From Candidatus Acidulidesulfobacter diazotrophicus (GTDB lineage Bacteria > SZUA-79 > Acidulodesulfobacterales > Acidulodesulfobacteraceae), in assembly GCA_004195025.1 (NCBI GenBank), contig SGBB01000017.1, forward strand, positions 1 through 47,036: DNA of 47,036 nt, in the 5' to 3' direction. Of the stretch, positions 5,171 through 47,036 are shown piece after piece. A program made the position numbers and the translations under genes. The first letter of the stretch is position 1. Every line of letters begins with the position of its first letter. Below the pieces are notes generated by a model. That model saw only the letters and a program-made list of their open reading frames with translations, did no database searches and was not told the origin of the DNA.

Positions 5171-5824
5171 ATGTTTAAAACTATAAAGGAAGATATTGAT
5201 TCCGTATTTGAAAGAGACCCCGCTGCAAGAAGCACTATTGAGGTTTTACTCTGCTATCCGGGTCTTCATGCTATATATTTCCATAAAATATCTCACTTTT
5301 TATGGATTCATAAATTAAAATTGCTTGCAAGGTTAGTGTCGCAATTTGCAAGATTTATTACTGGTATTGAAATTCATCCGGGAGCGAAAATAGGAAGAAG
5401 ATTTTTTATAGATCACGGTATGGGAGTGGTTATAGGAGAAACGGCTGAAATAGGCAACGGCGTAACGATTTATCATGGGGTTACGCTGGGAGGAACAAGC
5501 TGGAAGAAAGAAAAAAGACATCCTACGATTGAAGATAATGTTATGATAGGTGCAGGAGCTAGCATATTAGGTCCGTTTAAAGTAGGACACGACAGCAAAA
5601 TTGGGTCTAATTCCGTTGTTGTGAGTGAAGTACCCCCTCATTCGACGGTAGCAGGAGTTCCGGCTAAATCTATTACAAGAGACGAATCGGAAGTTCATGA
5701 CCGCGTAGATCTTGAACATCATAAACTTTTTGATCCTAACTATTATGAAATTGCAGCATTAAAACAAAGAATTAATGAATTAGAAAATAAAATGAAAAAT
5801 ATTGAAAACAATACGTTAAAATAA
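5171..5824 (+). CDS. cysE: Serine O-acetyltransferase CysE
   Basis: CysE transfers acetyl from acetyl-CoA to serine, the first step of cysteine synthesis. The product has the usual N-terminal helical region ([20 protein letters not shown]) and then a left-handed beta-helix of hexapeptide repeats. These include IHPGAKIG, the [15 protein letters not shown] block with the catalytic His, and [14 protein letters not shown]. The tail is a short coiled coil ([13 protein letters not shown]). An in-frame TTG at 5150 exists, but the family almost always begins at MFKTIKED, so I place the start at ATG 5171; 217 residues. It is followed after 12 bases by the Rrf2-type regulator gene, so the two are probably one transcript and cysteine supply may be under Fe-S or cysteine control. 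Confidence 0.95.
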
Positions 5825-5836
5825 TTAAAACAAAAT

Positions 5837-6313
5837 ATGAGATTATCTTCAAGAGGTCAATACGCAGTAAGGGCTATTATTGATATTGCCTACAATTCAA
5901 AAAATAATACTATGCCGATTAGTCTTAAAGATATTGCTAAACGGGAATATATATCTTTAACATATTTGGAACAGATTTTTTTTACATTAAAAAAGGCAGG
6001 AATAGTGAAAAGCATAAGAGGTCCGGGCGGCGGATATCTTCTTAATCAAAAATCGTCGGAAATTTTTATCGGAAATCTTATCGCTTCAGTTGAACCCATT
6101 GAAATTATCAGCTGTATAAGTAAAGAAAATAATAAAAAAGGATGCGAAAGGCAATCTACATGTTTAGCCTTTGACATGTGGAATTCTATATCTTCTAAAA
6201 TTATTGAGTTTCTTAATTCAATTTCTATTGCAGACGTAATAAGCGAATATAATATAAAAAACAATAATAGATTAAACGATGGCATTAAAAATTGCCGACA
6301 AGATAAAATTTAA
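5837..6313 (+). CDS. Rrf2/IscR-family transcriptional regulator
   Basis: A 158-residue winged-helix regulator. MRLSSRGQYAVRAIIDIA is the family N-terminus, YLEQIFFTLKKAGIVKSIRG is the recognition helix and GPGGGYLL the wing. Three Cys (93, 103, 109) fall in the usual cluster-binding loop, but with spacing C-x9-C-x5-C rather than the C-x5-C-x5-C of E. coli IscR, and the position of the IscR His ligand (three after the last Cys) is Phe here. It may therefore bind an Fe-S cluster in a different way, or sense cysteine metabolism as CymR-type members do. It sits between cysE and the cysteine desulfurase gene, and paired palindromic sites in the downstream gap (6341-6439) are likely operators. Confidence 0.9.
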   Translation: MRLSSRGQYAVRAIIDIAYNSKNNTMPISLKDIAKREYISLTYLEQIFFTLKKAGIVKSIRGPGGGYLLNQKSSEIFIGNLIASVEPIEIISCISKENNKKGCERQSTCLAFDMWNSISSKIIEFLNSISIADVISEYNIKNNNRLNDGIKNCRQDKI

Positions 6314-6340
6314 TATAATATTGCAATATACTATAACTTA

Positions 6341-6439
6341 TTTATTTAAATTAACGGCGTTTAAATATGATTTATTTTTAAATTATATAGCACCACAAAG
6401 AGTATATACTTCTTTATTTAAATTAACGGTATTTAAATA
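6341..6439. promoter_or_regulatory. Twin 27-bp palindromic sites upstream of the cysteine desulfurase gene
   Basis: TTTATTTAAATTAACGGCG followed by TTTAAATA at 6341-6367 is repeated at 6413-6439 with two changes (CG to TA in the middle). Each copy has inverted arms ATTTAAA and TTTAAAT around a nine-base centre. The two copies are 72 bases apart centre to centre, close to seven helical turns, so both would face the same side of the DNA. They stand in the 324-base gap between the Rrf2 gene and the desulfurase gene, the expected place for an autoregulatory operator. The rest of the gap (6440-6637) is AT-only with no further motif I can name. Confidence 0.55.
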
Positions 6440-6637
6440 GAATTGTAATTAATTATTAATTAAAAAAACTATTATCCGTATTTTATTTATTATTGAAATA
6501 CATGCAAGTCAAGTTTTGATTGCATCATCTATTTTAAATATTTTAAATTTTATTATTAAAAAAAATATAAAATTTTAATAAACAATAAAACATAAATTAA
6601 TAAAATATTAAAACCATAAATTAATAAATAATGCAAA

Positions 6638-39290: not shown

Positions 39291-39441
39291 TTTATAATAT
39301 TTTATTTTATATTGCAACGAATTAAATAAGGGGTTTGTTTTACTGTTTTATAATATTTCATTTTATATTGCAACGAATTAAATAAGGGGTTTGTTTTACT
39401 GTTTTATAATATTTCATTTTATATTGCAACGAATTAAATAA
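39274..39441. repeat. 56-bp tandem repeat, three copies
   Basis: A 56-base unit beginning GGGGTTTGTTTT and ending GAATTAAATAA occurs at 39274-39329, 39330-39385 and 39386-39441; the last two copies are identical and the first differs at two places. It contains TATTGCAACGAATTAAATAA. It lies between hup and tRNA-Val and has no spacers. A variable-number repeat is the simplest reading. Confidence 0.9.
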
Positions 39442-39486
39442 AATGTTAAACTAATTAAGCTAAAAAATTTATGTATATTCCTTAAC

Positions 39487-39563
39487 GGGCGGATAGCTCA
39501 GCCGGTTAGAGCATCGGCTTTACAAGCCGAGGGTCGCAGGTTCGAACCCTGCTCCGCCTACCA
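39487..39563 (+). tRNA. tRNA-Val (anticodon UAC)
   Basis: Cloverleaf with acceptor GGGCGGA/TCCGCCT (first pair G-U), D arm GCTC...GAGC, anticodon stem TCGGC/GCCGA with loop TTTACAA giving UAC, variable loop, T arm GCAGG TTCGAAC CCTGC, and an encoded CCA end (39561-39563). It marks the left edge of the accessory region. Confidence 0.96.
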
Positions 39564-39589
39564 CACAAAGACGCAGTAAATAAGCACTT

Positions 39590-39720
39590 TCCTTAATTCT
39601 TCCATAGAAACTGTCAATAGTATTTCAATGCCAAGTAATTCTGGATGACCGCTTCGCTCTCGTTATACACTAGAGCGAAGCGGTCATCCAGAAAATAAAT
39701 TTCTATGGAAGGATTAAGGA
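39590..39720. mobile_element. 131-bp MITE-like element with terminal inverted repeats
   Basis: Left end TCCTTAATTCTTCCATAGAAA (39590-39610) is the complement of the right end (39700-39720) with one mismatch. Inside, TTCTGGATGACCGCTTCGCT continuing to 39660 forms a perfect 22-bp inverted repeat with 39672-39693 around 11 bases. Part of it (39672-39712) recurs inverted at 4803-4843, so it is mobile or was copied. No transposase is encoded. It starts 27 bases after tRNA-Val. Confidence 0.7.
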
Positions 39721-39730
39721 ATAAATTTTA

Positions 39731-39756
39731 TTATTATAACTTTTATGTTATAATAA
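39731..39756. promoter_or_regulatory. Palindromic operator-like site before the HigB remnant
   Basis: TTATTATAAC (39731-39740) and GTTATAATAA (39747-39756) are perfect inverted arms around six bases, ending three bases before the ATG at 39760. Toxin-antitoxin operons are commonly autoregulated from such a palindrome; the arms also contain TATAAC and TATAAT -10-like hexamers. Confidence 0.5.
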
Positions 39757-39759
39757 TTT

Positions 39760-40121
39760 ATGGAATGGTTAGTCGAATTATATCGCGATAAAAACGGCAG
39801 GGAACCTGTAGCCGAGTTTTTAGATTCCCTGCCCGAAAAGGCAAGGCCAAAACCGTTAGGCTATTAAGTCTCTTAACTCAATACGGTGTGCTCTTAAAGG
39901 AACCATATACGAAACAGATAAAAGGTAAAATAAGGGAATTAAGAATTTCCGAACATACCGCCGAAGTAAGAGTGCTATATTTCACATTTACGAATAAAAA
40001 ATTCATACTGCTTCACGGCTTTATCAAGAAGAACGGGAAAACTCCGGTAAGGGAAATCGATGTCGCGGTAAAAAGGATGAACGATTTTATTGAATGCTCT
40101 GGAGGAAAAGATGAAAAATAG
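39760..40121 (+). pseudogene. HigB/RelE-like (Gp49 family) toxin, frameshifted
   Basis: ATG 39760 opens MEWLVELYRDKNGREPVAEF and LDSLPEKAR, then runs out at a TAA near 39866. From about 39852 another frame continues exactly where the family should: RLLSLLTQYGVLLKEPYTKQ, IKGKIRELRISEHTAEVRVL, YFTFTNKKFILLHGFIKKNG. One missing base near 39841-39855 (AGG-CC where AGGGCC would restore the frame) explains the break. Restored length would be about 120 residues, normal for phage-derived HigB-type mRNA interferases. A sequencing error is possible, but the partner antitoxin is also broken, which speaks for real decay. Confidence 0.75.
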
Positions 40122-40275
40122 AACCTTAAAAAACTACATAGACGAACAGATGAAAGACCCTGGCTTTAAAACGGCTTGGCATGAACTCGATACCGAATTT
40201 GAGCTTATGGAAAGCATGATTAAAGCAAGAAAAAAAGCTGAACTTACCCCGCTTATAACTGTTGTGAATCAGTGA
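40111..40275 (+). pseudogene. HigA-like antitoxin, truncated before its HTH domain
   Basis: GGAGG five bases before ATG 40111 starts MKNRTLKNYIDEQMKDPGFK, then AWHELDTEFELMESMIKARK, the usual N-terminal arm of HigA-type antitoxins. At KKAELT the family should continue into a Cro/CI helix-turn-helix (QEELA...), but here the frame reads PLITVVNQ and stops at residue 54. The rest of the HTH is not visible in any frame downstream, so this is a recombination or deletion breakpoint rather than a simple frameshift. It overlaps the end of the HigB remnant. Confidence 0.7.
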
Positions 40276-40425
40276 ATTATTTATATTTATATATTATATA
40301 TATAGTATATATCTATATTTAAAGTATATTAAATAGTTCACAAATGTATGTGAATTATTGTGAATTATTTAAAAAATGACATTAAATCCCTTATAGATAC
40401 TATATTTTGTGTTGTGAAAGATTTA
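40262..40425. repeat. TTCACA/TGTGAA repeat cluster, left copy
   Basis: Contains GTGAATCAGTGAATTATTT, AATAGTTCACAAATG, TGTGAATTATTGTGAATTAT and AAATCCCTTATAGATACTAT. The order of a TTCACAAA motif and an AAAxCCCTTATA-ATA-CTATAT block is shared with 45497-45668. The first element is immediately after the truncated HigA-like gene. Confidence 0.55.
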
Positions 40426-40444
40426 ATTTTAATTAAAAAAAGCG

Positions 40445-40496
40445 GACAGCCAAAAAGAAAAATCCAAACCTTTTCTTTTGGCCGTCTAATTGGGTT
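40445..40496 (+). terminator. Terminator-like hairpin
   Basis: GACAGCCAAAAAGAAAA pairs with TTTTCTTTTGGCCGTC (about 40445-40461 and 40481-40496) with one bulge and one mismatch; TTGGGTTTTTT follows. A similar GCCAAAAAGAAAAG stem is found after the PemK/MazF gene at 44466. Confidence 0.5.
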
Positions 40497-40524
40497 TTTT
40501 CGGAAGTTGCAGGGCTATACCTAA

Positions 40525-40926
40525 AATGGAATTAGTTCCAAATTTGGTAATCCAATTTTATATTGTGCATCAATCTTTAATTCAGGCGTTTTAAAATCAT
40601 TAGGCTTTCTCTTGGCTATCTTGCTAATTTCTAATTTGCCGTTATTAATCCTTCTTGAGTCTATCGGCACAGGTCTTGGAATATTTATCGTTATGGATAT
40701 TACAAGGCTCGGTTCGTATGCTATGGGCGATATTTTAACCGCAGGAGCGATAGGCGCTTATGTCGGTATAGAAAATATTGTTATTATTTCAATACTTGCT
40801 ATAATATTAGGTAAGATAATAACTTATTTTGCCGCACGGTTGGACGGTATTTGCGATAAAAGTAAGGTAAAAGAATTTAATATGGCTTTTGTGCCTGTAT
40901 TGTTTTTGGCAACGGTGGGCGGGTGA
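40525..40926 (+). pseudogene. Membrane protein remnant resembling a prepilin peptidase
   Basis: An open frame runs from after a TAA at 40522-40524 to 40926, without a convincing start (possible TTG at 40612). It encodes hydrophobic segments and AMGDILTAGAIGAYVG followed by IIISILAIILGK-like helices and MAFVPVLFLATVGG. This pattern resembles the C-terminal half of type IV prepilin (A24) peptidases, in which a GxGD aspartate and a PFGPFL-like end are conserved. The N-terminal Asp half is missing. It then ends abruptly in sequence coding for an unrelated TPR fragment. I call it a remnant; the family match is tentative. Confidence 0.4.
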
Positions 40927-41203
40927 TTATTTAAATCTCGGACGCAGTTATATATTCGTAAAAAAATATTCTACTGCCAAAAAATACATTCTTAAAAGCA
41001 TTTCAATGGAGAAAAAAATCGGCAATAAAAAGTGGATTGGTGACGGATTTGATTATCTCGGCAGACTTTATAGGAACGAAAAAGACAATAAAAAAGCTCT
41101 TTTATATTACGGCAGAGCCTACGATATGTTTAAAATCAGCGGAGATACTTCCGGTATGCGGGATTGTCTTTTTATGATAAATAAAATTAAAAATAAAAAC
41201 TAA
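40919..41203 (+). pseudogene. TPR-repeat protein fragment
   Basis: Frame coding YLNLGRSYIFVKKYSTAKKY, ILKSISMEKKIGNKKWIGDG, FDYLGRLYRNEKDNKKALLY and YGRAYDMFKISGDTSGM: two to three tetratricopeptide repeats with the usual G-Y-A-P spacing. There is no start codon of its own except an upstream ATG (40889) inside the preceding membrane-protein remnant, so the 5' part has been lost. The two remnants are joined within a few bases, which marks a deletion junction. Parent protein unknown. Confidence 0.5.
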
Positions 41204-41214
41204 AATGAGGTGAT

Positions 41215-41280
41215 ATGACTATGATTAAAGATAAACTTAAGGAAAACAAAAAATTATTATGGATATTCAAAAAACATTAG
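41215..41280 (+). CDS. Possible 21-residue peptide
   Basis: GAGGTG just before ATG 41215 is the best ribosome site in this stretch. It encodes MTMIKDKLKENKKLLWIFKK plus His. Its 3' end overlaps the next small ORF (ATG 41259) in another frame, so it may act as a leader peptide or be the 5' part of a frameshifted gene. Low certainty. Confidence 0.3.
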   Translation: MTMIKDKLKENKKLLWIFKKH

Positions 41281-41408
41281 AAAAATACGATAAAAAAGAT
41301 TTAAGCGAAAAAGAAGCTAAATCTTTCAAAAAAGATTTAATGCTGATCCCTCACTTTAATATTTCAAAGAAAAAATTAAATAAATCTGTTAAAATAATTA
41401 AAAAATAA
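41259..41408 (+). CDS. Possible 49-residue Lys-rich protein
   Basis: ATG 41259 to TAA 41408 encodes a basic, probably helical small protein (MDIQKTLEKYDKKDLSEKEA then KSFKKDLMLIPHFNISKKKL). It starts inside the 21-residue ORF and ends 12 bases before the 263-residue gene, which suggests a linked unit. No family recognised. Confidence 0.4.
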   Translation: MDIQKTLEKYDKKDLSEKEAKSFKKDLMLIPHFNISKKKLNKSVKIIKK

Positions 41409-41420
41409 ATTATAATAAAA

Positions 41421-42212
41421 ATGAGTAAAGAATATATAGCTAATAGAATAATAACTGTAATTAAAGAGGATCTTAATAATGGAGATATATTAGACGGCAT
41501 ATATCATTCTTTGGCTTATGATTTTTATTATAATTTTAAATATGACACTTATTTGATAGACGCAGGTTATGATATATCGGAATATCCTAAGGATACTAAA
41601 CAACATTTTAAATTAGAAGACTACAAAACAGTCGGTGATTTTCTTAAAGAATATACAGGCAATACCGTCGCAACATATATAAGCGGAAACGGAATATCAG
41701 CAGAAACATACGAAGATGATATAGAAGAACAGTTAGATAATGCTATATCTCATATTATTAATGATATTTTTGCCGAGTATAAAATTAATAAAGAAGAAGA
41801 AGATAGTGTTAGAGATGATATTTATGATAAATTAATTGAGAATAATCTATCTGGCATTGCAATTTTAGAAACAATAGTAAAGACGTCTTCTTTTAAAGAT
41901 ATGATATTAAAACACAAAGATATAGCCGATAATATTTATAAAACAAGATTAGATGAGGAATCTGAAAAAGAAGAAATAATAATAAATAACAATAAAATAT
42001 CTCAATCTATTTGTAATGATTTTTTATTATTTAAAGATAAGACAGAAAAGTTTACAAGCGAAGATATTGCTGATTTAAAAATGATAATAAAAAGTCTTAA
42101 ACTAAAATTCGGAGAAAAAAATATAAAAATATTTATAGAATCAGATTATTTTAAAAAAAATGTAAGCAATTCTTTGTTTGATAGATTTCAATTAATAGTT
42201 AGGACATTATAA
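41421..42212 (+). CDS. Hypothetical protein, 263 residues
   Basis: I do not recognise this protein. It is acidic, soluble and mostly helical by composition, without signal peptide or membrane segment. The first part (MSKEYIANRIITVIKEDLNN to TYISGNGISAE) is followed by a Glu/Asp-rich helical region and a Lys/Ile-rich end. No Cys cluster or nucleotide-binding motif is visible. It is preceded by two overlapping tiny ORFs and stands alone between remnants, in a region of toxin-antitoxin genes, so a defence or accessory role is possible but not shown. The start has no clear ribosome site. Confidence 0.65.
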   Translation: MSKEYIANRIITVIKEDLNNGDILDGIYHSLAYDFYYNFKYDTYLIDAGYDISEYPKDTKQHFKLEDYKTVGDFLKEYTGNTVATYISGNGISAETYEDDIEEQLDNAISHIINDIFAEYKINKEEEDSVRDDIYDKLIENNLSGIAILETIVKTSSFKDMILKHKDIADNIYKTRLDEESEKEEIIINNNKISQSICNDFLLFKDKTEKFTSEDIADLKMIIKSLKLKFGEKNIKIFIESDYFKKNVSNSLFDRFQLIVRTL

Positions 42213-42409
42213 AAAACAATAAAATTAACACCCTGCAAAGTCTTATATAATAAGGCTTTACAGACAACACGCCTTAAAACGCATTACAGAGCGTTTAAAC
42301 GGCTTATTTAAAAAGGTAATAGAAAAACCATTAACAGTATAATTAAAGGCTTCTGTTTTTAACGGGATAAAGGGGAAATAACAAAATAAAACATAAGTGA
42401 GATTAATTA
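42213..42409. other. Structured non-coding stretch after the 263-residue gene
   Basis: AAAGTCTTAT (42238-42247) pairs with ATAAGGCTTT around three bases, and GCC-TTAAAACGC (about 42279-42290) with GCGTTTAAACGGC around eight bases. They form two strong hairpins in series but lack T-runs. No gene is seen. Confidence 0.35.
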
Positions 42410-42487
42410 TGAAAAATATATTAAAAATATCCATAATTGCTTTTATCGTCTTTTCTGCAAATATAGTTTATCAATTGAAAAAGTGAA
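42410..42487 (+). pseudogene. Signal-peptide-only ORF, truncated gene start
   Basis: ATG 42410 encodes MKNILKISIIAFIVFSANIV and a few more residues before TGA. It is a perfect secretory signal sequence with nothing after it. The sequence changes to GC-richer DNA at the stop, so the mature part of the gene has probably been replaced. Confidence 0.4.
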
Positions 42488-42500
42488 ATCCTTTCCCGGG

Positions 42501-42690
42501 TTATGTTCTTGTCCCCCCCGCTCCTGCCGTTTTGATAATCTGCTCGCCTGCAGCATTCTGCCCCGCCTGAAGTTGAGTAAACTTTGGAGACAATAAATCC
42601 CATTGACGTTGAAGAGAAGGAAAATTAATCCCATTAGGAATTATCCTCTTTTTTTTTGTTCTTGTGGCACTATCAGGATGAGGAAGATGT
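42501..42690 (-). pseudogene. Fragment of an unknown gene, GC-richer
   Basis: On the minus strand the frame ending at 42501 reads INFPSLQRQWDLLSPKFTQL followed by QAGQNAAGEQIIKTAGAGG, protein-like and less AT-rich than anything nearby. It has no start before it meets the 3' end of the HEPN gene. It may be the tail of a foreign gene. Other overlapping frames are open here as well, so the assignment is weak. Confidence 0.3.
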
Positions 42691-42694
42691 GAAA

Positions 42695-43186
42695 TTATCT
42701 TTTAATATCTTTACTTTTATTTAGCCGGTTGTTTAAGTCTTTAGTAAAAGCGTCTTCCTCGTCTGGAGTCTGTTTTTGCTCAAGCAGATTTATCTTTGCT
42801 ATTACAAATGATTTAACTTTTTTTGCGATTAATATTGCTTCTTTTGTTTCTGTAACGGAAGGCATTTGAAAATCGTTATATTCGTCATAATCATTAGGAT
42901 ATCTGCTCCCTACGGCATATTCCGTCAATTTGCCAACGCCCAAATTTGATAATTCTTCAAATTCCGGATTTATTTTAGAACATTCTTTAATAATTTTATC
43001 AATATCATGAATCTGGAACTTTTGAATTTCTTGGTCATTGTAGATTAAAAAGGCTTTCAGCATTTTTTCAACGGCTTGCTGAGCATGAAAACAAATTATG
43101 TCTTTTGGCAGGTCATTATGTTTTAATACTTCCATATCATGATTAGCTTTATTTAACCACCCTTTAACTGTATTTATATTAACCAA
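42695..43186 (-). CDS. HEPN-domain protein of an MNT-HEPN pair
   Basis: A 163-residue helical protein of the PF05168-type HEPN group. The N-terminal WLNKANHDMEVLKHNDLPKD and the helix ICFHAQQAVEKMLKAFLIYN are diagnostic, followed by HDIDKIIKEC and the SRYPNDYDEYN segment. The RX4-6H RNase motif of toxic HEPN proteins is not visible (R is followed by YPNDYDEY), so RNase activity is doubtful. It overlaps the nucleotidyltransferase gene by 8 bases, the usual arrangement with MNT first. In this family the MNT protein modifies or silences its HEPN partner. The C-terminal 25 residues are charged. Confidence 0.85.
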   Translation of the reverse strand: MVNINTVKGWLNKANHDMEVLKHNDLPKDIICFHAQQAVEKMLKAFLIYNDQEIQKFQIHDIDKIIKECSKINPEFEELSNLGVGKLTEYAVGSRYPNDYDEYNDFQMPSVTETKEAILIAKKVKSFVIAKINLLEQKQTPDEEDAFTKDLNNRLNKSKDIKR

Positions 43187-43517
43187 GTTTTACTCCGTCC
43201 TTTAATACATAATAGCTTATAAGACCTTTGTCGCCTTTTTCTTGTAATAATTTTTTATGCGATTTAACAATAATATCGCTTGCTATAAAATCTGAAAGCC
43301 TTTTTCTAATATTTGACGTTAATGCTATTTTTTCGCTGCGGGAAAATTCTTTATCTATTACGACAAAAAAATCCCAATCACTATATTCTTTATAGTCCCC
43401 TCTCGCTCTGGAGCCGAAAAGATAAATAGCTTCTGCTTTATAGCCGGCGTTTTCGGCTTCAGAGCTAATTATATTTTTTGCTGTATTTAGTATGTTTATA
43501 TCTTGAACTCTAAACAT
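43179..43517 (-). CDS. Minimal nucleotidyltransferase (MNT) of an MNT-HEPN pair
   Basis: A 112-residue DNA polymerase beta-like nucleotidyltransferase. The signature YLFGSRARGDYKEYSDWDF has the GSx10DxD pattern (GS, then D-W-D) that binds nucleotide and metal; FIASDIIVKSHK probably supplies the third acidic residue. Length is typical for the minimal family. It is translated ahead of, and overlaps, the HEPN gene. Known pairs work as toxin-antitoxin systems in which MNT adenylylates HEPN, but such pairs without the HEPN RNase motif remain unclear. Confidence 0.87.
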   Translation of the reverse strand: MFRVQDINILNTAKNIISSEAENAGYKAEAIYLFGSRARGDYKEYSDWDFFVVIDKEFSRSEKIALTSNIRKRLSDFIASDIIVKSHKKLLQEKGDKGLISYYVLKDGVKLG

Positions 43518-43915
43518 AAACTTAGACCTTATTTAATATAATATCTTTCATTTTAATTTTTATATTATTTATTATAGCATATAATTTAATATAAAAAAAT
43601 TATAGGAAAAGTGATAATGGTGGTAAGAATGAGGGAGATGTGAGGAATTATATATTATCTTTTTCTGTGGATGTGAATCAAGTAATTTTTACTCCGCATG
43701 TGCTGCAAAATTTGCTATTTTTCGGTAAAACGGCACTTCCATTAATTTATGGGCGGGACTACTGCCGTCCCCCGAAGTTCTTGCGCAATATAATTAAGTC
43801 GACCTTAGCTTTTATGGATATAATATAATATAAGTCTAATTATTTTATTATTTCCAATATAAAAATATGGTATAATAACTTTTATAATAAATTCAATCTT
43901 TAGGTATGATTAATT
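43518..43915. other. 398-base gap between MNT and PemK-antitoxin genes
   Basis: AT-rich promoter-like sequence for the MNT gene lies next to it. At 43618-43665 a segment (AGAATGAGGGAGATGTGAGG then AATTATATATTATC) resembles 42675-42703 on the other side of the MNT-HEPN pair in the same orientation. 43745-43780 is GC-richer (GGCGGGACTACTGCCGTCCC) and may be a gene remnant. The 62-codon frame at 43640 does not look like a gene. A TATAAT at 43871 may serve the next operon, but no good -35 is seen. Confidence 0.4.
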
Positions 43916-44110
43916 ATGAACAAAGATTACGTATTACGCGAAATTGATAAATTACCGGAGGATCTCCTTCCAGAAGTTTTTGATTTTATAAAGTTTTTAG
44001 AAAATAGGCAAAATCGAGAAAATATTTCTTTAGCTTCGCAGATTCTTTCCGAAAAAGCGTTTAAAAAAATATGGGATAACGAAGAAGACGCTTGTTATGA
44101 TAACTTATAA
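43916..44110 (+). CDS. DUF2281-like antitoxin
   Basis: A 64-residue acidic protein, MNKDYVLREIDKLPEDLLPE then VFDFIKFLENRQ, with the typical LP-x-E-x2-x-E-V-x-D-F-I pattern of DUF2281/VapB-like antitoxins. The C-terminal part (EKAFKKIWDNEEDACYDNL) would wrap the toxin. It overlaps the PemK/MazF-type toxin gene by 14 bases, which supports translational coupling. Confidence 0.82.
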   Translation: MNKDYVLREIDKLPEDLLPEVFDFIKFLENRQNRENISLASQILSEKAFKKIWDNEEDACYDNL

Positions 44111-44438
44111 TAAAAGAGATATTGTTCTTGTCCCCTTCCCGTTTAGTGATCAGACCTTTATTAAAAAACGTCCTGCCGTAGTTATAAGCTCTAATGATTA
44201 TAATAATTATTCTTTTGATATTATAATCATGGCTGTTACAAGTAATATTGAAGCATATTCTAAAATTGGAGAATGTCTTATAAATAATTATAAGGAAGCA
44301 GGTCTATTAAAACCCTCATCTATAAAACCTGCAATATCGACTATAAATAAGTCGTTAATATTGAGAAAATTAGGCACTTTATCCTTAAAAGATATTAACT
44401 TGATGGAAAAAATATTAAGGGAACTATTAGGCTTATAA
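44097..44438 (+). CDS. PemK/MazF-type mRNA interferase toxin
   Basis: A 113-residue ribosome-independent endoribonuclease of the MazF/PemK fold. RDIVLVPFPFSDQTFIKKRP then AVVISSNDYNN is the family N-terminus, with the catalytic Arg in KKRPAVVIS. PSSIKPAISTINKSLILRKLG contains the conserved Thr/Ser of the active site region, and the end is a helix (NLMEKILRELLG). Intact and full length. Its partner is the upstream overlapping DUF2281-like gene. Confidence 0.88.
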   Translation: MITYNKRDIVLVPFPFSDQTFIKKRPAVVISSNDYNNYSFDIIIMAVTSNIEAYSKIGECLINNYKEAGLLKPSSIKPAISTINKSLILRKLGTLSLKDINLMEKILRELLGL

Positions 44439-44702
44439 ATAAAAAAGGTAGATTTATTCTCAGGCGGCCAAAAAGAAAAGGTTCTCTCTTTTTAGCTTAA
44501 ATCACGGATTATAAAACGCTCAAATTTGTGTTTTAAGGCTCGGAAAGAATAGGGTAAATATAAAACTATTAGAAGTTTGTTATCTACATATATAATCTAT
44601 ATGTTATTTTATGTTATTTTTGGAATTTGACTTTATTAAAATAATATATTATTATTTTAATATAACTCGGTTTTAATTTTTAAATAACATTTTTGATTTT
44701 TT
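44439..44702. other. Gap after the PemK/MazF gene with a terminator-like hairpin
   Basis: GGCCAAAAAGAAAAG (44467-44481) can pair with CTCTTTTTAGC (about 44487-44497), a terminator-like stem related to the one at 40445. The remaining ~200 bases are AT-rich with no gene visible. Confidence 0.4.
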
Positions 44703-44731
44703 TTGACAAAATTTAAAATTAATATTATAAA
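44703..44731 (+). promoter_or_regulatory. Consensus-like sigma70 promoter of the protease pair
   Basis: TTGACA at 44703-44708 and TATAAA at 44726-44731, exactly 17 bases apart, 55 bases before the ATG at 44786. One of the best promoters in the window. Confidence 0.7.
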
Positions 44732-44785
44732 TAAATTAAGAAAAATCAGAGATATTATAATGATATTAAAAAAGGGGTTTTAAAA

Positions 44786-45037
44786 ATGAGTGATAATTTT
44801 TTAGAGCGTGAATTGAATAGATATAAAGAAAATCTACAAATCCTTCTTGCTAATGAGGGGCGTTTTGTCTTAATCAAAGGCGATGAAAATTTTGAATATT
44901 TTGACACTTACGATGATGCCTTGAAAGCAGGATATGAGAAATATGGCATTAATCCATTTCTTGTTCATAAGATTAGCCGTGTTGAATCAATTGTTAATTT
45001 TACAAGAAGCTTAAGAATTCCGTCATGCCAAGTGTAA
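44786..45037 (+). CDS. DUF5678-like small protein upstream of a retropepsin-like protease
   Basis: An 83-residue protein with LERELNRYKENLQILLANEG (a helix) and GRFVLIKGDENFEYFDTYDD, then ALKAGYEKYGINPFLVHKI. The pattern GxFVLI-G-E...F-T-DDAL-xGYEKYG-PFLV-I resembles the small DUF5678 family, whose function is not known. AAGGGG is a good ribosome site 11 bases upstream, and a near-consensus promoter precedes it. The stop overlaps the start of the aspartic protease gene by 13 bases, so the two products are probably made together. Confidence 0.75.
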   Translation: MSDNFLERELNRYKENLQILLANEGRFVLIKGDENFEYFDTYDDALKAGYEKYGINPFLVHKISRVESIVNFTRSLRIPSCQV

Positions 45038-45495
45038 ATCTTGGAATAGATAGAACATTAGGGCCAATTTTACAGGCTTATATATTGCCGACTAAGTACC
45101 GCATAGATGCATTAATAAAAGCAAAACTTCCGGTTCCGGCAGCGGAACTAGGAACTTTTTTGCTGGATACGGGTGCCAGTCAGACTTGCGTTGACCCTTT
45201 AATTATTAGTAAACTTGGGCTTACGCCGACTGATTTTATTTCAATTCAAACTCCGTCAACAAACGGGGTTCCGGCTCAATGCGGAACATACGACATAGGA
45301 ATAATTATAGGACCGACTATCGCACCGTCGGAGGTTTTAAATCCAATATTGAATATGTCTTATTATTGCACATTAAATGTAGTAGAGGCCAGCTTATCTC
45401 ATCAAGGAATATCCGGATTAATAGGCAGGGATATACTCGAGCAATGCATATTGTTTTATAATGGTAGAGTAGGAGGGTTCACACTTTCTTGGTAA
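45025..45495 (+). CDS. Retropepsin-like aspartic protease
   Basis: A 156-residue single-lobe aspartic protease. The catalytic motif FLLDTGASQTCVD (near residues 48-60) is followed about 80 residues later by SGLIGRDILEQC, the second hallmark of retropepsin-like enzymes (hydrophobic pair-G-x-D). It has no membrane anchor or signal peptide, so it should act in the cytoplasm, as a dimer like other single-lobe pepsins. The start is inside the end of the upstream DUF5678-like gene. Substrate unknown; the upstream small protein is a candidate partner or substrate. Confidence 0.8.
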   Translation: MPSVNLGIDRTLGPILQAYILPTKYRIDALIKAKLPVPAAELGTFLLDTGASQTCVDPLIISKLGLTPTDFISIQTPSTNGVPAQCGTYDIGIIIGPTIAPSEVLNPILNMSYYCTLNVVEASLSHQGISGLIGRDILEQCILFYNGRVGGFTLSW

Positions 45496-45496
45496 T

Positions 45497-45668
45497 GTGT
45501 GAATAATTCACAAGATAGTTCACAAATCCTTACCCCCATCAAACCCTTATAATATCTATATCTAAAAGAACGTAAAAAAATAATTCACGAATAGTTCGCA
45601 AGCATTTTTAGCCTTTAACCACATATAAATAAAGGCATTGCGGCGAATAGTTCACAAATTCACAAAAA
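45497..45668. repeat. TTCACA/TGTGAA repeat cluster, right copy
   Basis: Begins with the perfect palindrome TGTGAATAATTCACA (45497-45511) and continues with GATAGTTCACAAA, AATTCACGAATAGTTCGCAA and GAATAGTTCACAAATTCACA. Between them AAACCCTTATAATATCTATA matches the block at 40387-40405. The cluster is the counterpart of 40262-40425, 5.2 kb away, in the same orientation. Iteron or recombination site is possible; no replication gene is in the window. Confidence 0.6.
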
Positions 45669-45753
45669 TTTTACATATATATCTTGATAAATTTTAAATT
45701 AGTAATCAGTTTACTATTCGGTTTTTTGCAGTATAATTAAATTATTTAAAAAA

Positions 45754-45894
45754 ATGTGGGCGGAATGTATGTCTTATAAAAAAATAGCTGCAGAATTATC
45801 TCTTCGTCATCGTCGGCATTTTTCCGTCAGTTTAGTTTTTCAATGTTATAAGCATAATATAGATTGTTTGTTTGAAAATAAAAAAAATAATTGA
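45754..45894 (+). CDS. Possible 46-residue HTH-like fragment
   Basis: ATG 45754 to TGA 45894 encodes MWAECMSYKKIAAELSLRHR and RHFSVSLVFQCYKHNIDCLF. SYKKIAAELS followed by a second helix resembles the first half of a resolvase or transposase-type helix-turn-helix. Too short for a full domain; probably a remnant. The vapBC promoter overlaps its last codons. Confidence 0.35.
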   Translation: MWAECMSYKKIAAELSLRHRRHFSVSLVFQCYKHNIDCLFENKKNN

Positions 45895-45919
45895 CTAACT
45901 GTCAAATATAATATATACT
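45891..45919 (+). promoter_or_regulatory. vapBC promoter with palindromic operator
   Basis: TTGACT at 45891-45896 and TATACT at 45914-45919 are 17 bases apart. The -35 is part of the inverted repeat TTGAC-TAACT-GTCAA (45891-45905), a likely binding site for the VapB-VapC complex. The ATG of vapB is 44 bases after the -10, with GGGGG just before it. Confidence 0.6.
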
Positions 45920-45962
45920 AAAAAATATATATTTATTAAGTATATTGTAAGAACGGGGGAGA

Positions 45963-46190
45963 ATGAAAACCGCAAAACTATTCCAAAACGGCAAAAGTCA
46001 GGCTGTAAGACTATTAAAAGAATTTAGATTCGAAACCAGCGAAGTGTATATAAAAAAGGTTGGCAGAAGCGTTATTTTGACGCCAAAGGATGATTACTGG
46101 GATTCTCTTTTTGAAAGTGTCGATAAATTCAGCAAAGATTTTATGGTGGAAAGAAACCAGCCTGAAATGCAGAAAAGAGTGGCTTTATAA
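45963..46190 (+). CDS. vapB: VapB antitoxin (AbrB/SpoVT fold)
   Basis: A 75-residue antitoxin. MKTAKLFQNGKSQAVRLLKE and FRFETSEVYIKKVGRSVILT match the VapB swapped-hairpin DNA-binding domain; the tail (YWDSLFESVDKFSKDF) would bind the VapC groove. It overlaps vapC by one base (TAATG), and AACGGGGGAGA precedes the ATG. A palindromic promoter region upstream fits autoregulation. Confidence 0.92.
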   Translation: MKTAKLFQNGKSQAVRLLKEFRFETSEVYIKKVGRSVILTPKDDYWDSLFESVDKFSKDFMVERNQPEMQKRVAL

Positions 46191-46600
46191 TGAAGGCGAA
46201 GTATATGCTTGATACAAATATTTGTATCTATATCATTAAAAACAAGCCATTAGGGGTTAAAGAAAAACTTTCTTTAATAGTGCCGGAAGATATATGCCTT
46301 TCTTCGATAACGGTTTCAGAGTTATTCTACGGCGTGGAGAAAAGCCAATATCCTCAAAAAAACAGAGAGGCGTTGGAGGATTTTTTAATTAATTTCAATA
46401 TAATGGATTACGGCTATGAAGCTTCGGAATCGTACGGGAAAATAAGGGCTCATCTGGAAAAAACAGGAGATATCATCGGCGCCATGGATTTGATGATAGC
46501 TGCACATGCCTTAAGCCTGAAGACTATTTTAGTAACAAACAATATGAAAGAATTTAAAAAAATCGAAGGCCTAAAAATCGAAAATTGGTATTTATACTAA
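46190..46600 (+). CDS. vapC: VapC toxin, PIN-domain endoribonuclease
   Basis: A 136-residue PIN nuclease. The acidic residues are visible in YMLDTNICIYI, SSITVSELFYGVEKS and GDIIGAMDLMIAAHA, and the end TNNMKEFKKIEGLKIENW is typical of VapC that cleaves tRNA or rRNA. Complete length and paired with the VapB in front, so probably active. A one-base overlap gives coupled translation. Confidence 0.93.
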   Translation: MKAKYMLDTNICIYIIKNKPLGVKEKLSLIVPEDICLSSITVSELFYGVEKSQYPQKNREALEDFLINFNIMDYGYEASESYGKIRAHLEKTGDIIGAMDLMIAAHALSLKTILVTNNMKEFKKIEGLKIENWYLY

Positions 46601-46711
46601 GTACTATAAATAGAGATAATAATTGCCGAAGAAACAGAAAAAGATTGATTTAGGATTTATTCAATTATAAAATAATAAAGTGGATAGATTGGATTATTTA
46701 GGGAGGTTGTT

Positions 46712-46951
46712 ATGAATAAAAAATGGCAATTGCAAGAAGCAAAAAATAGATTCAGCAATCTGGTTGAGATTGCAAAAAACGAGGGTCCTCAGCTTATTAC
46801 TAAAAACGGGAAGGATGCTGTCGTAATTTTATCCGCAGATGAGTACAAAAAATTAATAAAACCAAAAATCAATCTGGTAGAATTTATTCAGCAATCTCCG
46901 CTTAAAGGCCTGAACCTCCCCATGTCTAAAGACAGGGGGTTCTGTCCGTGA
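46712..46951 (+). CDS. Phd/YefM-family antitoxin
   Basis: A 79-residue antitoxin. MNKKWQLQEAKNRFSNLVEI, then GPQLITKNGKDAVVILSADE and YKKL, is the Phd DNA-binding and dimerisation region. The C-terminal tail (VEFIQQSPLKGLNL) is of the type that pairs with VapC- or Doc-type toxins. GGGAGG lies a few bases before the ATG. The stop overlaps a GTG that should begin the toxin, but the toxin frame breaks off (46948-47010). Confidence 0.88.
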   Translation: MNKKWQLQEAKNRFSNLVEIAKNEGPQLITKNGKDAVVILSADEYKKLIKPKINLVEFIQQSPLKGLNLPMSKDRGFCP

Positions 46952-47010
46952 TTAATACAAATCTTTCAGGCTCTCGCAATAAAAGAATCTTTATTGTTAC
47001 AACATCCTAA
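46948..47010 (+). pseudogene. Toxin remnant after the Phd-type gene
   Basis: GTG 46948 overlaps the antitoxin stop (GTGA), the usual junction to a PIN-type toxin. The frame reads VINTNLSGSRNKRIFIVTTS and stops. VINTN resembles the first strand of a PIN domain, (V/L)IDTN, with the catalytic Asp changed to Asn; the rest of a PIN domain does not follow. The last 26 bases of the window show no clear gene. Confidence 0.45.
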
Positions 47011-47036
47011 ACCTCTTTGCATTACAACCGAACTTT

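Follow-up and report, generated by a model that had tools for sequence, protein, structure and literature searches.

The region analysed here (the window) is a whole contig of 47,036 nucleotides from Candidatus Acidulidesulfobacter diazotrophicus, and it carries two short genes in overlapping frames on the forward strand. The first (44786–45037, ATG to TAA) encodes a small DUF5678-like protein of 83 aa, and the second (45025–45495, ATG to TAA) encodes a retropepsin-like aspartic protease of 156 aa. The 3' end of the small gene and the start of the protease gene share 13 nt (45025–45037, forward strand), as the original prediction had stated for a small gene followed by a single-lobe aspartic protease. 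A likely ribosome-binding site, AAGGGG, precedes the small gene (44772–44777, forward strand), and a similar AAAGGGGG is found in the nearest homologue (G016), which shares 76% identity with the small protein and 68% with the protease. The start of the protease gene has no clear ribosome site immediately ahead of it, and translational coupling of the protease to the small gene is therefore likely. Pairwise comparison with the same homologue gave dN/dS values of about 0.13 for the small gene and 0.21 for the protease gene (rough estimates, with dS >1), which points to purifying selection on both. The pair had also been credited with its own promoter. A putative sigma-70-like element, TTGACA-17-TATAAA, does exist upstream (44703–44731, forward strand) and matches 11 of the 12 consensus positions, but 46 of 2000 dinucleotide shuffles of the same AT-rich 186 nt also reach 11/12 and the element is not conserved in the nearest homologue, so that we regard it as a plausible rather than an established promoter of the pair.

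In all six congeners compared by blastn, the order clpX-hup-tRNA-Val is kept as far as about position 39591 of the window; beyond about position 39731, none of the six has a matching stretch at that site. Since the synteny stops after the tRNA-Val gene (39487–39563; located with ARAGORN), the pair belongs to an accessory island immediately 3' of this tRNA, which we delimit from blastn synteny, ARAGORN and Pfam to 39592–47036 and which reaches the contig end. The toxin–antitoxin surroundings described earlier were confirmed by Pfam, which identified HEPN/MNT genes (42695–43517), DUF2281/PemK genes (43916–44438), VapB-like/PIN genes (45963–46600), and Phd/YefM coding sequence (46712–46951) within the island. 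An apparent broken RelE/HigB-type pair was also seen inside it, at 39762–40275. The tRNA gene itself is preceded by a 56-nt unit in three tandem copies (39300–39467) and immediately followed by a small MITE- or REP-like element (39589–39721) with 22-nt inverted arms around a 25-nt hairpin arm pair.

Both motifs on which the protease assignment had relied, FLLDTGASQTCVD and GLIGRDIL (LIGRDIL), are present in the second gene product. The catalytic Asp is residue 48, within a DTGA motif (Asp48 to Ala51; 45166–45177, forward strand), and the second retropepsin motif, GRD, occupies residues 134–136 (45424–45432, forward strand). The window protein thus shows the D[TS]G motif on a single lobe of ~100–150 aa that defines retropepsin-like clan AA (family A2-like) enzymes, with LIGRDIL supplying the hydrophobic-hydrophobic-Gly second motif and the AF2 model supplying the fold. 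Matches to Pfam were borderline (22.9 bits for PF13650, Asp_protease_2, just below the cut-off of 24.3; E = 0.0097 for RVP, in an alignment running from DTG to GRD), and a sequence search of the PDB gave no match. The AF2 model, built from 23 natural homologues, reached a pLDDT of 91.2, and its top Foldseek matches were all aspartic proteases, the best being Rickettsia APRc (5c9f, E = 3.8e-4); a retropepsin fold is predicted with confidence. In the alignment of 23 relatives (A5), D48, G50, A51, and G134 are invariant and T49 and D136 nearly so. Invariance of the catalytic Asp had been proposed as a check on the original prediction, and the D[TSC]G motif is likewise kept in 63 of 64 distinct viral pairs; from these residues, the enzyme looks active. 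In agreement with the predicted cytoplasmic location, the hydropathy profile contained no signal-peptide-like or membrane segment. A subfamily with GMD in place of GRD (L086, L090, L091, and L170) carries a C-terminal SEC-C zinc motif.

The small protein of the window matched no Pfam family at E<1, and PF18929 (DUF5678) was absent from its genome. However, DUF5678 matched 11 of the 26 homologues in the family alignment (A4), with a best E of 2.2e-7 and two shown above the cut-off. The label "DUF5678-like" is therefore right by family, whereas the window protein is not a member by score. Its AF2 model (pLDDT 76.9) has a helix-helix-strand-strand-helix-strand core followed by a flexible C-terminal tail, and comparison with PDB folds returned no meaningful match (all E ≥ 2). 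The tail, in the VESIVNFTRSLRIPSCQV region (44975–45034, forward strand), is modelled with low confidence (pLDDT about 51–57 for residues 71–83) and contains motifs that are kept in relatives. These motifs differ between subfamilies, YTQTFHSRVxFA being found in one and F[TSI]xR or PAxxLGxL in others. Among 64 viral small proteins, 32 have [ST]R[VASI] in their tails, versus 4 expected from shuffled tails.

The search for the first six protease homologues took no account of the small gene, yet each of them has it directly upstream. Profiles of the two proteins were also run separately over 386 genomes. At every one of the 24 protease places scoring E ≤ 1.1e-7, the small gene lay directly upstream (23 of these partners were recovered by the separate small-protein profile at the genome level and one by an ORF-level search), and 23 of the 25 small-protein places adjoined a protease; of the other two, one is next to a truncated protease (G266) and the second stands alone (G315). 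Six of the loci had seeded the profiles, which leaves about 18 as independent cases. The pair is patchily distributed, being present in only about 6% of the sampled genomes. Spacing in the 35 measurable pairs ranged from −29 to +35 nt (median −13), with 26 overlapping; as start sites were set by rule, individual spacings carry some error. Many homologous pairs share an overlap of 13 or 14 nt. Over the same 35 pairs, the distance matrices of the small protein and the protease were strongly correlated (Mantel r = 0.80, a value reached in 0 of 5000 permutations). We found no fusion of the two genes among about 100 pairs, and no third gene was recurrent, with no Pfam family matching more than 2 of 146 neighbours. 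Homologues of the two genes are thus almost always found together, in a constant order and with frequent overlap, which was the second check proposed for the original prediction. Taken with the invariant catalytic Asp, this co-occurrence gives good support to the functional module that had been claimed, and on these genome comparisons we conclude that the small gene and the retropepsin gene form a genuine, widespread, and conserved two-gene module whose products probably work together.

Exceptions to the pairing were few. In four cases (G266, G377, L120, and G315), the small gene persists although the protease is truncated, interrupted by a stop, frameshifted, or absent, as expected if the protease were the costly part; the broken-protease cases are in draft assemblies, however, and sequencing errors may account for some of them. 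Protease genes that are interrupted or truncated were seen at L074 (G377:C73), L077 (G266:C32), L120, and L111, the first three of these loci retaining an intact small gene. An orphan small protein at L088 (6225–6458) has no protease and is followed by an apparent VapB-type antitoxin gene. Within the family, at least one protease has no small partner (L107); this speaks against a strictly toxic enzyme, since with an obligate antitoxin a toxic protease should not occur alone.

Beyond the window, we found the pair on the Methylobacterium radiotolerans plasmid pNYY1_5, in genomes and MAGs labelled Nitrospirae, Duganella, Verrucomicrobia, Planctomycetota, and Tectomicrobia, as well as on some 60 different viral contigs. 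A search of genome contigs with a single protein gave no matches, and one with an alignment of three sequences did. No pair was found in phage GenBank records, and many were found in IMG/VR, where 70 of 87 retropepsin loci have the small partner (64 distinct small proteins). Of the 17 loci without it, two (L167 and L207) begin at a contig end and the rest are more distant phage retropepsins. Three lone phage retropepsins without a partner (L197, L198, and L199, around 5281–6486) lie at the ends of apparent tail-tip protein reading frames that terminate at "...AANVCDEQ", as though the protease had been placed there by insertion. The genomic settings of its copies show the pair to be a mobile module. 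Known defence genes were not enriched near it, and a PADLOC scan of the neighbours returned one-off matches. These were mostly housekeeping-paralogue-like (DprA-like ShosA, helicases), so a defence-island setting was rejected as a candidate and we make no claim of enrichment.

How might the two proteins work together? The account that we favour, tentatively and at somewhat less than even confidence, is that of a mobile two-gene module in which the partner would bind and restrain the protease until triggered; binding, inhibition, toxicity, and defence are all steps that we infer. The small DUF5678-like protein would be made first, followed, through translational coupling, by a cytoplasmic homodimeric retropepsin. 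The small protein would then bind the protease dimer with its compact core and restrain the enzyme with its C-terminal tail, flexible and conserved, which would lie in the substrate cleft or close to it. Infection by a phage or loss of the element, the most likely triggers, would free the protease to cut host or phage proteins, and the pair would thereby work like a proteolytic toxin–antitoxin or abortive-infection module. A function of the toxin–antitoxin or effector kind is consistent with the mobility, the scattered presence, the lack of a fixed third gene, and the homology to PDC-M08, a candidate defence system described below. This more specific part of the original prediction, a toxin–antitoxin or protease-activated effector module, is thus plausible but unproven, in contrast to the module itself. 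Against the favoured account stand the neighbouring genes, which are mostly housekeeping genes with known defence genes not enriched, the lone protease of L107, the more distant viral retropepsins that lack a small partner, and the differences in tail motif between subfamilies. A bolder version, in which an undescribed and widespread class of phage–host conflict system in bacteria, plasmids, and phages would be built on an HIV-protease-like retropepsin restrained by the tail of its DUF5678-like partner inserted in the active site, appears doubtful to us.

We hold the restraint mechanism at this strength because the observations are also compatible with the small protein being a substrate or an adaptor. 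In the first case, the protease would cut the conserved C-terminal tail, thereby activating or destroying the small protein, which would itself be the effector. Retropepsins cut exposed hydrophobic stretches, and the flexible tail with its conserved motifs would suit such a role; on the other hand, the core is very small and has no known effector fold. The persistence of small proteins after loss of the protease suggests that they are neither useless nor harmful alone, an argument that weighs against a substrate without excluding it, and we consider this reading unlikely.

To a similar, low degree we credit a role for the small protein as a substrate adaptor or activator that would deliver targets to the protease or stabilise its dimer. 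The obligate pairing, the coupling of translation, and the covariation of distances would be expected of an adaptor no less than of an inhibitor. However, adaptors commonly serve several enzymes, whereas the pairing is strict here and the tail is the part that varies between subfamilies.

A further reading derives the pair from phages, where it would serve virion maturation or other phage biology, the chromosomal copies being prophage remains. Viral-contig copies are indeed many, and in two of them the neighbours would suit such a role, the pair adjoining a portal gene in one (L115) and directly following a head maturation protease in the other (L121). Elsewhere, however, the nearby gene encodes an integrase (L116) or a CI-like repressor (L114), and since the neighbours differ among these four contigs, the position of the pair within phages is not fixed. 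Most cellular copies, moreover, are flanked by housekeeping genes and have no phage genes around them. Together, these observations make a phage-specific role improbable. That the two genes are merely unrelated neighbours that overlap by chance can be dismissed with near certainty, as no support for it was found and order, spacing, and co-inheritance are conserved in about 100 pairs.

Very few roles are known for bacterial retropepsins, and our literature search returned none with a dedicated small partner and nothing on retropepsins in defence; judged by that search, the two-gene module has not been described before. A compact unit whose conservation extends from Nitrospirae to Duganella and to viral contigs, and which combines an intact active site with a conserved tail motif in the partner, offers a direct way to ask what bacterial retropepsins do. 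If the partner does restrain the protease, the pair would join a small group of protease-based immune or toxin–antitoxin modules.

Among the bacterial proteases with which the window enzyme can be compared, Rickettsia APRc (5c9f, 5c9b) shares the retropepsin fold at about 16% identity and a TM-score near 0.5, and has been reported as a modulator of surface proteins and an immune-evasion factor (PMC4140852). RimB and RloA are also bacterial and retropepsin-like, and RloA has DTGA as the window protease does; yet RimB acts in ribosome modification, RloA proteins are secreted, and neither has been described as part of a mobile pair with a small partner (PMC11957791, PMC12239564). In its architecture, the pair resembles type II toxin–antitoxin modules such as PemK/MazF and VapBC, which flank it in the window and likewise consist of two short, co-directional, usually overlapping genes with the small one first, carried on mobile or accessory DNA, and all of these features were found in the window. 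However, the second gene of the type II modules encodes an RNase and that of the window pair an aspartic protease, and the Pfam and NCBIfam matches of the pair included no described toxin or antitoxin family. No function has been described for DUF5678 (PF18929), whose definition does not involve a protease partner, and the literature search returned this family only in an unrelated plant study.

The closest likeness is to PDC-M08, a candidate defence system of PADLOC that our literature search did not find mentioned. Here too, a small protein (PDC-M08A, a model of 86 positions) comes first and a clan AA protease (PDC-M08B) directly after, and at 7 of 8 PDC-M08A places in the 386 genomes we found a retropepsin gene immediately downstream. 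None of the 26 small proteins, the one in the window included, was matched by the PDC-M08A models; the window protease matched PDC-M08B weakly (E = 0.006), and PDLC04402 matched 14 of the 23 protease relatives (best E = 4.3e-5). Profile–profile comparison with hhalign scored 36.8 for the small protein against PDC-M08A (maximum of 13.8 in 100 column shuffles) and 76.2 for the protease against PDC-M08B (versus 20.4 in column shuffles). The two groups also differ in sequence, as PDC-M08-type proteases have GMN, GLD, or similar as the second motif where the window protease has GRD, and PDC-M08-type small proteins, unlike that of the window, start with a W..V...YP-type motif. Given the profile–profile homology and the failure of the PDC-M08A models to detect it, the window pair is best described as a divergent sister of PDC-M08 rather than a member by the models. 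The window pair, DUF5678, and PDC-M08 are thereby linked into one superfamily, so that testing any one member would be informative for the rest.
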